Shown piece by piece: positions 1 through 39,776 of a stretch of DNA of 64,000 nt; positions within the stretch are counted from its first letter, which is position 1; each line of letters opens with the position of its first letter. The notes under the pieces were generated by a model, which searched no databases, was not told the DNA's origin, and worked only from the letters and a program-made list of their open reading frames with translations. The translations under genes and the position numbers were made by a program. The DNA lies in assembly GCA_014860575.1 (NCBI GenBank), contig JACZJK010000001.1:1-64000 (forward strand). Direction: 5' to 3'. This DNA is from Bacteroidales bacterium. Lineage in GTDB: Bacteria; Bacteroidota; Bacteroidia; Bacteroidales; JAAYJT01.

Positions 1-2
1 AC

Positions 3-86
3 CTCGAACCTTGAACCTCGAACCTCGAACCTTGAACCTCGAACCTTGAACCTCGAACCTCGAACCTTGAACCTCGAACCTTGAAC
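3..86. repeat. Heptanucleotide array CTYGAAC x12
   Basis: Twelve uninterrupted 7-bp units, each CTCGAAC or CTTGAAC. The order of C and T variants is C T C C T C T C C T C T, so the array also has a 35-bp higher-order period (five units, CTCCT) repeated 2.4 times. It ends 24 bp before the first coding region and may start outside the window. The same unit occurs inside wecB. CTTGAAC carries a TGA, so the array is not open in any frame. Confidence 0.95.
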
Positions 87-110: not shown

Positions 111-1229
111 ATGGATTTCACTTTCAACACATACAAACAACTCCTGCAAACCCTGCAATCCCAAGGCTATGCCTTCACCACCCTGGCGGATTATATGAAG
201 AGCGAAACTAAACTATCACCGGAAGTTAAGAAATCTGCTTCCGCTGCGGCTGAGTCCTCTAACCCTTTAGGGGGAGCCGGAGGGGGTGCGGTGGAGTTCC
301 CTCCCCCTTTAGGGGGAGCCGGAGGGGGCGCGCCGGATACTAAAAGCAACAACCTCCAACCATCAACCATCCGAAATCGTCAATCCAAAATCGTCAATCC
401 GAAATTAATCCTACTGCGTCACGACGTAGAAGCCCGCTACCCCAACGCTTTACGCTTTGCCCAGATCCAGCATGCAATGGGCATCCGTGGTAGTTATTAT
501 TTCAGGCTTTATCCGAAACCCAGGAACACGAGGTTTATACGCAGCATCGCTGATCTCGGCCACGAGATAGGCTACCATTACGACGACCTCTCATTTTGCA
601 AAGGCAATCACGACCATGCCATCATTCGCTTCGAGCAACACCTTGATTTCCTGCGAACCATCGCGCCCGTTGAAACCATCACTATGGAAGGCGCACCGCT
701 GTCATCATACGACAACCGCGCCCTCTGGGAAAAATTTGACTACAAAGCCTATGGCATCCTCGCCGAACCCTACTTCGACCTAAACTTTGGTACAGACTTC
801 AGCCAAAGTAGGCATCCCGATAGCTATCGGGAGGCAAATGGCAGAAGGCAAACGCCGAATCCTCAATACCAAACGTCAAACGCCGAACCTCGAACGCCGA
901 ACCCTGAAACCGTCAACTCGACAGGCTCAGTGACCGGACCGCGAAACGACTTCTTCTATCTCACTGATACCGGCCGCCGCTGGGATGGATGGAAGGTAAG
1001 TCTCCGCGACAAAGTCCCGCAGCAGGACGAATGGATCAAACAAGGACTGGTTTTCCATTCCACCGCCGATATCATCAAAGCCGCCAACAAAGGCAAATTG
1101 CCCGATCATATCATGATGACCTTCCATCCCCAACGCTGGAACAATGTCTTCCTACCCTGGGCCAAAGAGCTTGTTTTTCAAAACGCTAAGAATGTTGTTA
1201 AATATTTACTTGTCTACGTGAAAAGGTGA
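111..1229 (+). CDS. Polysaccharide deacetylase-like protein with two repeat-derived insertions
   Basis: 372 aa, predicted cytoplasmic (no signal peptide or membrane segment). The core resembles polysaccharide-deacetylase-fold proteins of capsule and LPS clusters: a strand ending in RHDVE (R103-E107) and GHEIGYHYDD (H151, H156, D158, D159) supply the expected Asp and His metal ligands, followed late by a LTDTGRRWDGWK stretch. Two segments look foreign to the fold: residues about 51-99 (two PLGGAGGGA copies plus Asn/Gln/Pro-rich sequence) and about 235-267 (TPN, TSN and EPRTPN strings). Both are translations of the simple repeats found between genes here, and both keep the frame. The first gene of a polysaccharide block, it is followed directly by another repeat array. 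Substrate unknown; deacetylase activity is inferred from the fold only. Confidence 0.7.
   Translation: MDFTFNTYKQLLQTLQSQGYAFTTLADYMKSETKLSPEVKKSASAAAESSNPLGGAGGGAVEFPPPLGGAGGGAPDTKSNNLQPSTIRNRQSKIVNPKLILLRHDVEARYPNALRFAQIQHAMGIRGSYYFRLYPKPRNTRFIRSIADLGHEIGYHYDDLSFCKGNHDHAIIRFEQHLDFLRTIAPVETITMEGAPLSSYDNRALWEKFDYKAYGILAEPYFDLNFGTDFSQSRHPDSYREANGRRQTPNPQYQTSNAEPRTPNPETVNSTGSVTGPRNDFFYLTDTGRRWDGWKVSLRDKVPQQDEWIKQGLVFHSTADIIKAANKGKLPDHIMMTFHPQRWNNVFLPWAKELVFQNAKNVVKYLLVYVKR
263..405 (+). repeat. In-frame repeat insertion A inside the deacetylase-like gene
   Basis: Two 28-bp near-identical copies (263-290 and 305-332) of a CCCTTTAGGGGGAG-type sequence lie 42 bp apart, giving the peptide PLGGAGGGA twice. 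They are followed by period-7 units at 354-367 and 371-405 (CCGAAAT, CGTCAAT, CCAAAAT, CGTCAAT, CCGAAAT). A related CCCCTAAAGGGG palindrome is in the non-coding stretch near 5030-5090. The whole segment is open in the gene frame. Confidence 0.85.
815..909 (+). repeat. In-frame repeat insertion B: 18-bp palindrome plus heptamer array
   Basis: Positions 815-832 are a perfect 18-bp palindrome, TCCCGATAGCTATCGGGA. It is followed without a gap by eleven 7-bp units (833-909) such as GGCAAAC, GCCGAAT, GTCAAAC, GCCGAAC and CTCGAAC. The segment is translated in frame within the deacetylase-like protein, between the conserved FDLNFGTDF and DFFYLTDTGRRW parts. Confidence 0.9.
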
Positions 1230-6520: not shown

Positions 6521-6606
6521 GCAGTAGGCAACAGAGATTTACACCCCCGAAAGTATTGTCTAACCTAAAACTTAGAAAACGGAACGCCGAACGTCAAACA
6601 TCAAAC
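6508..6606. repeat. Heptamer arrays at the end of the DUF354 gene
   Basis: Three 7-bp units CAGTAGG, GAGTAGG, CAGTAGG (6508-6528) provide the stop codon of the DUF354 gene. After a short gap, ACGGAAC, GCCGAAC, GTCAAAC and ATCAAAC follow (6579-6606), the same heptamer type as inside wecB and the deacetylase-like gene. Confidence 0.85.
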
Positions 6607-6624
6607 GGTCTTCACTGTTTTAAG

Positions 6625-6980: not shown

Positions 6981-7085
6981 AAGAAATGCATATCGCACTT
7001 TTCGGAGCAGACTCAACCTTGAACCTTCTTTGAACATTGAACCCGGAACCCCGATTGCCAAACGAGATTCACCTCATGCCCAACC

Positions 7086-7126
7086 AAGGATGCCATCCCT
7101 TCCCGTTGGTCAGGGTTTGCATCCTT
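7086..7126 (+). repeat. 41-bp dispersed element, copy 2
   Basis: AAGGATGC ... GCATCCTT with internal CTTCCCGTTGGTCAGGGTTT. It is 36 bp upstream of the wecB start codon, in a region that is open in the wecB frame, and nearly identical to 8459-8499 on the far side of the same gene. Confidence 0.93.
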
Positions 7127-7161
7127 TGCCCACTGACTTCGAACAAAAACCCTATCCTCCC

Positions 7162-8397
7162 ATGTCACTAAAAATCCTATCCGTGGTCGGCGCACGACCA
7201 AATTTTATGAAAATTGCGCCCTTCATCCGTGCCATCAACAACCATAACCAAAACCCAGAACCCCGAACGCCGAACGCCGAACGTCAAACGTCAAACGCAA
7301 AACCCGTTACCTCGAACCTTGAACCCGGAACTTTGAACCTCGAACACCTCCTCGTTCATACCGGCCAGCATTACGACGATCGCATGTCAGAACAATTTTT
7401 CCGCGAACTCAATATCCCCCAGGCAGATATAAATCTTGGGGTTGGTTCGGGAAGCCATGCCGAGCAGGTTGGACAGACCATGATCGCATTTGAGAAAGTA
7501 CTCAGGGCCGAAAAACCCGATTGGGTGGTGGTGGTAGGCGATGTAAACGCTACCCTTGCATGCTCGGTAACGGCAAAGAAAGAATGGGTCAAACTTTGCC
7601 ATATTGAAGCCGGTTTGCGTTCGCACGACATGAAAATGCCCGAGGAAATCAACCGGCTGGTAACCGACCGTTTAGCGGATCTTTTGCTCACTCCCGATGA
7701 GCTTTCCTCTGAAAATCTAAGGAAAGAAGGCGTGCCGGAAAGCAAGATCAGATTTGTGGGCAATATCATGATTGATACCCTCGAAGCAAACCGCCTCGTT
7801 GCTGCAGATCTGAGCCTCGAAAATATTATCATGCAAAACCTTACCAAAAGCTTTGAACTGAAAACACGCATTCCGGAAAATGAAAAATATGCTGTTTTAA
7901 CCCTGCACCGTCCTTCAAATGTGGACACGAAAGAAGTGTTGGAACCAATCGTGCGGTTTATACTTGATGAGGTTCTGAGCGACATCACCCTGCTGTGGAC
8001 TTTACATCCACGCACGTTGAACAAGCTGAAAGATTTCGGCCTGTACGAAATCCTTGCCGCACACCCGAACATTATATTGCTCGAACCGGTTGCCTATCGC
8101 GAAATGCTTCGTCTGAACATGGGAGCCCGCATGATGTTAACCGACAGTGGCGGATTGCAGGAAGAATGCACGGTATTGGGAACGCCCTGCCTCACCTTGC
8201 GGTGGAATACCGAGCGGCCCGTTACGCTCCGGGAGTATGGCGGGGCAAGCGTGTTGGTCGGAAATAACATTGATCAGATCCGGAATGAATACTATATTGC
8301 CTTAAAAAAGTCGCGTTCGCCATACAGACCATCCCTATGGGACGGCAACACTGCAGACAGATGCCTGCAAGCCATTCTTGAGAACCATCTGCGGTAA
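7162..8397 (+). CDS. wecB: UDP-N-acetylglucosamine 2-epimerase with repeat insertion
   Basis: 411 aa; converts UDP-GlcNAc to UDP-ManNAc in the cytoplasm for surface polysaccharide. The start at 7162 gives MSLKILSVVGARPNFMKIAP, the normal N-terminus; the open frame goes back to 6976, but that part is repeat-derived. Family motifs: GARPNFMK, VHTGQHYD, VVVVGDVNATLAC, HIEAGLRS, TLHRPSNVD and LTDSGGLQEE. Residues about 32-62 (strings such as PRTPNAERQTSN and NLEPGTLNLE) are extra: homologues pass almost directly from the first helix to HLLVHTGQHYD. The extra block is a 91-bp heptamer array (7255-7345). All catalytic motifs lie outside it, so the enzyme could still work, but the array sits on the loop before strand 2. 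Confidence 0.93.
   Translation: MSLKILSVVGARPNFMKIAPFIRAINNHNQNPEPRTPNAERQTSNAKPVTSNLEPGTLNLEHLLVHTGQHYDDRMSEQFFRELNIPQADINLGVGSGSHAEQVGQTMIAFEKVLRAEKPDWVVVVGDVNATLACSVTAKKEWVKLCHIEAGLRSHDMKMPEEINRLVTDRLADLLLTPDELSSENLRKEGVPESKIRFVGNIMIDTLEANRLVAADLSLENIIMQNLTKSFELKTRIPENEKYAVLTLHRPSNVDTKEVLEPIVRFILDEVLSDITLLWTLHPRTLNKLKDFGLYEILAAHPNIILLEPVAYREMLRLNMGARMMLTDSGGLQEECTVLGTPCLTLRWNTERPVTLREYGGASVLVGNNIDQIRNEYYIALKKSRSPYRPSLWDGNTADRCLQAILENHLR
7255..7345 (+). repeat. Thirteen-unit heptamer array translated inside wecB
   Basis: Thirteen consecutive 7-bp units, mostly NNNGAAC or NNNAAAC: CCAGAAC, CCCGAAC, GCCGAAC x2, GTCAAAC x2, GCAAAAC, CCGTTAC, CTCGAAC, CTTGAAC, CCGGAAC, TTTGAAC, CTCGAAC. Units with an internal TGA (CTTGAAC, TTTGAAC) happen to be read out of the TGA phase, so the gene stays open. 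The array length is not a multiple of three, so the junctions must compensate. Confidence 0.95.
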
Positions 8398-8901
8398 GCT
8401 CATATAAATTCTTCAAGTTCCAGTTTCGAGGTTCCAGATTCCACGCCCGTTGCCCATCAAGGATGCCACCCCTTCCCGTTGGTCAGGGTTTGCATCCTTT
8501 GCCCCACCTAGCTCACATGAAGCCCCATGCCCCAAGCACAAAATTCAAAATCCAAAACCCAAAATCCAAATAGCTGTCGTATGTGATTTTACAATCTTAA
8601 ATCTGGAATTTTGAATTAAATAATTGTATTACTCCAGGCTTCGACACTCAGCCACCGGAACCCATTACTCCATCACTCCATAACTCCATTACTCCATCAC
8701 CCCACTAATTGACCAATTAACAAGTTAACAAGTTAACAAATCAACCAATTAACCACTCAACACAGCATCACCGTTTCACTGCATCACAAAAAAAACTGAC
8801 CCTATGTAATTTAAATTTTTTCAAACTTTTCTATTGTGGTAAGGAACGCCCATTTTTGCTGTTGACTGGAAAAACCCTATTTTCGCAGCAAAATCCCCTT
8901 T
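8398..8901. other. 504-bp gene-free stretch of mixed short-period repeats
   Basis: After the wecB stop comes the third 41-bp element (8459-8499), period-7 units around 8540-8570 (ATTCAAA, ATCCAAA, ACCCAAA, ATCCAAA), ordinary AT-rich sequence, then period-8 arrays: nACTCCAT at about 8668-8700 and AACAAGTT/AACAAATC/AACCAATT at about 8718-8755. The last 100 bp before the next gene are non-repetitive and AT-rich; TATTTTCG (8878-8885) is a possible variant -7 motif. Confidence 0.8.
8459..8499 (+). repeat. 41-bp dispersed element, copy 3
   Basis: Same sequence as 7086-7126 with single-base differences; intact 8-bp terminal inverted repeats AAGGATGC/GCATCCTT. Flanking bases (GCCC before, TGCCC after) are also shared with copy 2, so the repeated unit may be a few bases longer. 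Confidence 0.93.
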
Positions 8902-39553: not shown

Positions 39554-39776
39554 TGAATGGGTTCAGAAGAGAAAGTTTAGAGGGTTTAGAGAGTTTAGGG
39601 GGTTTAGAGATTGGTTGCTGGTTACTGGTTGCTGGTTGCTGGTTAAGAGTTCATAATTCAATTGTTCTATTGTTCTATTGTTCAATTGTTCTATGTTTTT
39701 GTTCAAGGTTCGAGGTTATAGGGTTTAGAAGTTTAGAAGGTTTAGAGTTTAGGATGGTTAGAGAGCACTTCAATAG
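39554..39776. repeat. Period-9, -7 and -8 arrays between helicase and tamL
   Basis: Three short arrays in a row: 9-bp units of the type RGTTTAGAG (about 39570-39605), 7-bp units TTGCTGG/TTACTGG (about 39610-39645), and 8-bp units ATTGTTCT/ATTGTTCA (about 39660-39695), then further GGTTTAGA-like units to 39750. The 75-codon open frame across it is translation of repeats and is not called. Confidence 0.85.

Follow-up and report, generated by a model that had tools for sequence, protein, structure and literature searches.

Repeats whose unit is not a triplet are usually expected to break the genes in which they occur. With respect to a dispersed repeat family that also lies in frame within genes, the closest precedent is provided by the Rickettsia palindromic elements (RPE), which in the cited account are mostly intergenic, are found in frame in conserved genes as well, and include one borne by a guanylate kinase that is active (PMC2229807). 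As described there, RPE are palindromic units of 105-146 bp, whereas the insert considered here, in the UDP-GlcNAc 2-epimerase gene wecB of a Bacteroidales bacterium, is no palindrome of that size but a direct array of 7-bp units, with repeats of other kinds at the same loops of its homologues. With respect to tandem repeats that generate new disordered segments, the closest precedent is offered by Borgs, in which tandem repeats within ORFs (aaTR) make new, probably disordered protein segments (PMC9879509). The in-ORF units in that account are all multiples of three and nearly perfect, whereas those described below are 7 or 8 bp long and, in wecB, heterogeneous; a triplet-repeat model was rejected for wecB, its 7-bp unit not being divisible by three. 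Genome-wide arrays of 7-bp units, partly intragenic, have also been reported, with the units TAACTGA in Beggiatoaceae, GGGAATC in Xanthomonas and Nostoc, and GGGACCG in Geobacter (PMC4679880, PMC4692102, PMC2700814), but the cited sections present mainly intergenic arrays of one near-fixed unit and describe no recurrent in-frame loop arrays. Finally, the heptanucleotide repeats of H. influenzae share with wecB the presence of 7-bp units within ORFs and are able to shift the frame (PMC2651432); those arrays are described as differing in length between strains, whereas the wecB array is imperfect.

Searches of the open-licence literature found no account of heptamer arrays lying in frame in WecB or in polysaccharide genes of Bacteroidales, which is weak evidence of absence. 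What appears to be novel is that homologous enzymes of different lineages repeatedly carry in-frame non-triplet arrays at the same loops.

The wecB gene and its heptamer array

The source genome is a 4.41-Mb draft in 66 contigs, 95% complete, and the window (the whole stretch of 64,000 nucleotides that was analysed) corresponds to positions 1-64000 of contig C1. wecB lies at 7162..8397 on the forward strand and starts with an ATG at 7162, its 411 codons being free of stops. Its 411-aa translation matches Pfam Epimerase_2 and scores 270.6 bits against the wecB equivalog model TIGR00236 (cut-off 210.15), which places it among the non-hydrolysing UDP-GlcNAc 2-epimerases. The nearest named homologues come mostly from Bacteroidales or Bacteroidetes MAGs, and the neighbouring genes encode glycosyltransferase, DUF354, FemAB/GNAT-like and bacterial sugar transferase domains.

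Positions 7258-7348 of the forward strand, within wecB, form a 91-bp array of thirteen heptamers, mostly with the core RAAC. Units 1-7 read GAACCCC, GAACGCC, GAACGCC, GAACGTC, AAACGTC, AAACGCA and AAACCCG, and units 8-13 read TTACCTC, GAACCTT, GAACCCG, GAACTTT, GAACCTC and GAACACC. The lag-7 identity of the array, 61/84, was reached by none of 20,000 dinucleotide shuffles (maximum 42) and by none of 20,000 codon shuffles, and at only two places in the window, namely here and in an array starting at position 1. These results confirm an earlier note on this DNA, which had described thirteen 7-bp units in frame within wecB; its further statement that the units containing TGA are out of phase is likewise borne out, both TGA triplets at unit joins (7320 and 7334) being off frame. 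Because the units are dissimilar, Tandem Repeats Finder catches only the right half of the array (7301-7345, score 55, and 7309-7345, score 53).

The stretch from GARPNFMK to HTGQHY measures 144 nt in this gene and 72 nt in 21 of the 45 WecB sequences measured (L171 yielded none), so that the net gain is about 24 residues and not the "about 31 extra residues" first proposed. The repeat-coded peptide occupies WecB residues 31-59 (7252..7338, forward strand), with the insertion aligned after residue 30, and is hydrophilic (GRAVY -1.44 vs -0.18 for the remaining WecB). In this fold, loops that connect a helix with the following strand sit on the opposite side from the active cleft, and the loop bearing the insert is, by fold topology, of a type that we take to sit away from that cleft. 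A hydrophilic, probably disordered loop in such a place would leave an enzyme that probably still works despite the insert.

The earlier note had offered two readings, a live gene that tolerates intergenic-type DNA or a gene on its way to decay. That the repeat has already damaged wecB, leaving a young pseudogene still in frame by chance, would agree with the frameshifts found at the same loop of wecB in two relatives (G039 and G159) and with a homologue of a second repeat-bearing gene, ORF 111-1229, that is split by another element in G331. The window WecB, however, retains 102/102 of the columns that are invariant across the other 20 aligned homologues, on which ground decay of this copy was rejected; the equivalog score, the stop-free frame and the lack of another ortholog-level copy count against it as well, and we hold it to be distinctly improbable. 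The idea that another wecB frees the window copy from constraint was also rejected, since no second ortholog-level wecB was found in the 95%-complete genome, only paralogues of 38% and 33% identity. It is the first of the two readings, a live gene tolerating intergenic-type repeat DNA, that is supported by the sequence evidence; the growth of that DNA, which the note also implied, finds no support in an array with at most two identical neighbouring units.

Dispersed arrays and their distribution among genes

The claim that the same units also make up non-coding arrays was upheld both in the window and elsewhere in the genome. Repeat searches found such an array at the start of the contig (1..86, forward strand), where no ORF is listed, and a short one between ORFs upstream of wecB (6582..6607, forward strand) matches the insert at 96% over 26 bases. 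In the stretches searched, 40 arrays comprising 317 units of the wecB-array vocabulary were counted as intergenic, meaning outside the three array-bearing genes wecB, ORF 111-1229 and P0003; their commonest units are GAACCTT, GAACTTT, GAACCCG and GAACGCC, with a core at unit positions 1-4 that in part reflects the rule used for detection. The pattern GAACNNN in four consecutive copies gave 103 overlapping matches in this genome; of the 119 genomes covered in the relatives search (this genome counted), 26 contained it. That search has no clean control because the pattern read backwards is itself common. Several heptamer families coexist. In the dispersal of the repeat outside genes, and in the absence of the insert from homologues while its flanks are conserved, the case resembles RPE-like in-frame insertions of dispersed repeats. 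No array with the same unit order as that of wecB was found in the genome, the best DNA matches being 75% over 94 query bases and 89% over 47, so that a single recent copy event from a source array is unsupported.

Arrays of the same heptamers occur at contig breaks, at the start of C1 (window 1-86) and at the end of contig C66 (17206-17336). That contigs of this genome end within such arrays is what an assembly artefact of a short-read draft might produce. On the other hand, the wecB array is 91 bp long, with mostly distinct units and unique flanks, and numerous separate assemblies show comparable arrays within genes, which makes an artefact extremely improbable. C66 and C1 both hold polysaccharide genes and share a longest common stretch of 31 nt; as their ends have no exact overlap, it is only suspected that they adjoin and may form one polysaccharide locus.

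Other repeats were observed in the window. On either side of wecB (about 7084-7137 and 8452-8506) there is an approximately 50-bp element that includes GGTCAGGGTTTGCATCC and has ends that by eye are inverted; a third copy, inverted, lies at about 1280-1325, and none was found beyond these in the stretches of this genome searched. A 104-bp unit is present in 2.8 copies at 97% between ORFs (1692-1987), and arrays of 8-bp units, of the CCATCACT, AATTAACA and TTCTATTG types, lie between genes at 8652-8767 and 39641-39706.

When 120 putative genes in about 177 kb of this genome were compared with its intergenic DNA, four were found to have internal repeats of intergenic type: ORF 111-1229, wecB, an FnlB-like gene (L131:2704-3894) and P0003, all in the polysaccharide parts of C1 and C66. 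P0003 encodes a WecB-family paralogue, adjoins FnlA-/FnlB-like genes and has two further stretches matching intergenic repeats. Two more putative genes bear such repeats at one end (L132 1218-2237 and L142 422-2341, G000). In-gene arrays of period 7 or 8 were present in 3/17 genes of the polysaccharide parts vs 0/119 others (31 in the rest of the window and 88 in seven arbitrarily placed 20-kb stretches), a post hoc comparison (Fisher p=0.0017) in that the window was chosen for the finding and C66 was taken because a repeat query matched there. Among stretches from six other genomes, internal arrays were found in second-family members, i.e. homologues of ORF 111-1229, of G157, G073 and G302 and in one further G157 gene, and none in the stretches of G202, G343 and G159; on wecB-bearing contigs, arrays occur within the G343 wecB and the G159 homologue of ORF 111-1229. 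Since further genes of other genomes bear arrays, the restriction of in-gene arrays to polysaccharide genes amounts, in this small sample, to a tendency and not a rule. A 1201-aa ORF with five in-frame 7- or 8-bp arrays (L176 13998-17603) was observed on the wecB-bearing contig of G159.

Recurrent insertion sites in WecB and in a second family

Insertions in WecB were surveyed in 43 in-frame sequences including the window gene, the frameshifted G039 and G159 copies having been excluded beforehand and L003 having failed the motif filter; the rows are not all independent, as some may be from the same species (L044 and L157 share a loop peptide). All 10 insertions of at least 8 residues fall at two sites, one after residue 30 in the loop following the first helix (L001, which is the window gene, L037, L048, L057, L151 and L167) and one after residue 236 in the loop before the HRPSNVD strand (L045, L053, L055 and L062). 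A period of 7 (p<=0.005) was detected in 5/10 insertions (L001, L053, L055, L057 and L151) and in 1/244 control segments; neither period 7 nor period 8 was detected in the remaining five. The insert of L057 is a palindromic repeat that is matched a second time, over 21 nt, within its locus; that of L048 looks palindromic, with no second copy found in its 6.4-kb locus; and the heptamers of L053 and L055 (titled Desulfobacteraceae) recur in the flanks. The same insert in distant WecB proteins, which the earlier note had named as an observation that would speak against its reading, was not encountered; the same site instead bears other repeats.

The recurrence of insertions at the same WecB loops might suggest that the repeat-coded loop is retained for a selected new function, for example in binding or regulation, and the Borg authors argue that disordered segments coded by repeats are functional (PMC9879509). 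The inserts, however, vary in sequence, kind and length across homologues and the short 72-nt loop is common, so that no shared motif is under selection; we therefore judge a new function to be very unlikely.

The second family is represented in the window by a 372-aa ORF on the forward strand (111..1229) that carries several in-frame repeats, is matched by no Pfam or NCBIfam model and, in an order-wide search, has homologues in 60/393 genomes. Array search and alignment place a heptamer array in frame at 870..904 (forward strand, insert site 163), and a tandem repeat search found a 14-bp array in frame at 369..405 (forward strand). The ORF also holds the palindrome CCCGATAGCTATCGGG (816..831), with two other copies (L142 and L274) in the stretches searched, and, from repeat comparison, two repeat copies containing TTTAGGGGGAG (261..331, forward strand), of which no copy was found outside the ORF in those stretches. 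The arrays of the G159 homologue lie between the conserved motifs that it shares with this ORF, most of them in different loops.

Among inserts of at least 10 residues in this family, 19/27 have a period of 7 or 8 (p<=0.005), compared with 3/248 control segments. The 19 inserts occur in 13/51 homologues examined, which is not a frequency because the sample is enriched for long members: of 65 matches, the 30 best, 19 chosen ones (mostly long or split), the window ORF and the G159 homologue were taken, and 14 were left out. The raw output of the period test comprised 52 rows and 30 inserts, of which 21 were significant in 15 rows; both inserts of L232/L254 (one gene, with a 6-bp pattern) and one insert containing N were dropped to give the 27 tested. 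Three further homologues were observed to be irregular. That of L249 (G331) is interrupted by an element with the ends GCCCTGTGAAAT and ATTTCACAGGGC; that of L240 (G097:C16:17100-18900) has a run of N at a recurrent insert site with the flanking codons repeated, and the run is perhaps an unresolved array; the split homologue L248 has a G run near the break and was not counted as a repeat-caused frameshift, no heptamer array being seen there.

Short repeats at the first loop put the wecB of G039 and that of G159 out of frame; this loop contains CAATTGT, CAATTAT and CAATCAT in G039 and CAAT-like tetramers in G159. CAATNNN, the type found in the WecB loops of G343 and G039, gave 62 matches to three consecutive units in G343, 61 in G039 and 5 in G159, and the reversed-pattern control gave 5, 0 and 2, respectively. 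The two frameshifts may be assembly errors. They bear on whether the locus is a contingency locus, in which repeats of the WecB loop would gain and lose 7-, 8- or 4-bp units and so reversibly switch the gene and vary the surface polysaccharide, the window copy being 'on'. In both relatives the rest of the ORF is open, some in-frame arrays consist of near-identical units (CGACAAT in G343, AATCAGA in L250 and TTCAAAG in L238), the in-gene arrays of the sampled stretches of the source genome fall in polysaccharide-part genes, and the intragenic heptanucleotide repeats of H. influenzae are put forward as switches in the cited account (PMC2651432). The window array, however, lacks runs of identical, slippage-prone units; at most two neighbouring units are identical, so that slippage would be slow. 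Furthermore, second-family inserts are nearly all in open frames, and the G039 and G159 frameshifts could reflect assembly errors or decay. A contingency locus is in our judgement unlikely, although some relatives may possess an on/off switch. We give similarly little credence to a broader proposal, by which a process making 7- and 8-bp repeats would favour surface-polysaccharide loci; the repeats would nucleate at a few enzyme loops and there both diversify the loop and slowly switch the frame, on here and off in G039 and G159, so that the cell surface varies.

Probable origin of the inserts and a proposed frame filter

The reading that we consider likely is that dispersed non-triplet repeats enter permissive loops and that selection keeps the copies that are in frame and free of stops. 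Short arrays of 7-bp (and 8-bp) units occur, chiefly in intergenic DNA, in this genome and in many relatives of its order, and these arrays, along with some palindromic dispersed repeats, would also arise or land in coding sequence at a few permissive loops. As 7 and 8 are not multiples of three, most such insertions are expected to break the frame or run into a stop, and the arrays seen in intact genes would be survivors whose net length preserves the frame and whose units are free of in-phase stops. We infer that the folded protein tolerates the insert and that selection acts as the filter.

Stops at unit joins agree with such a filter. T|GA joins make up 2/17 in two coding arrays vs 109/277 in other arrays (Fisher p=0.022, with 17 coding-array joins only). 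In simulated 13-unit arrays a given frame is open in 13% and some frame in 30%, the figure for a given frame being 60% on the reverse strand. Real arrays yielded just 9 windows of 91 bp, 8 of them without an open frame and 1 with one. These comparisons lend modest support to a stop filter on coding arrays, and the two frameshifted relatives indicate that the frame filter is not absolute.

As to how the inserts arise, copying or slippage is the probable source. Near-matches to the core occur at the native loop edges of the window wecB (CATAAC on the left and GAACAC on the right), and the native loop edge of G039, where the repeat is of the CAAT type, reads ATCAATCAT. We hypothesise that arrays are seeded by short matches at loop edges, perhaps at AAC-containing codons there.

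Insertions of this kind offer a natural map of insertion-tolerant positions in WecB-type enzymes and a possible source of new disordered protein segments. With wecB of G039 and G159 frameshifted by a similar event, tolerance, decay and switching can be compared. The evidence suggests that such genes repeatedly take up and tolerate repeat DNA while the frame stays open.
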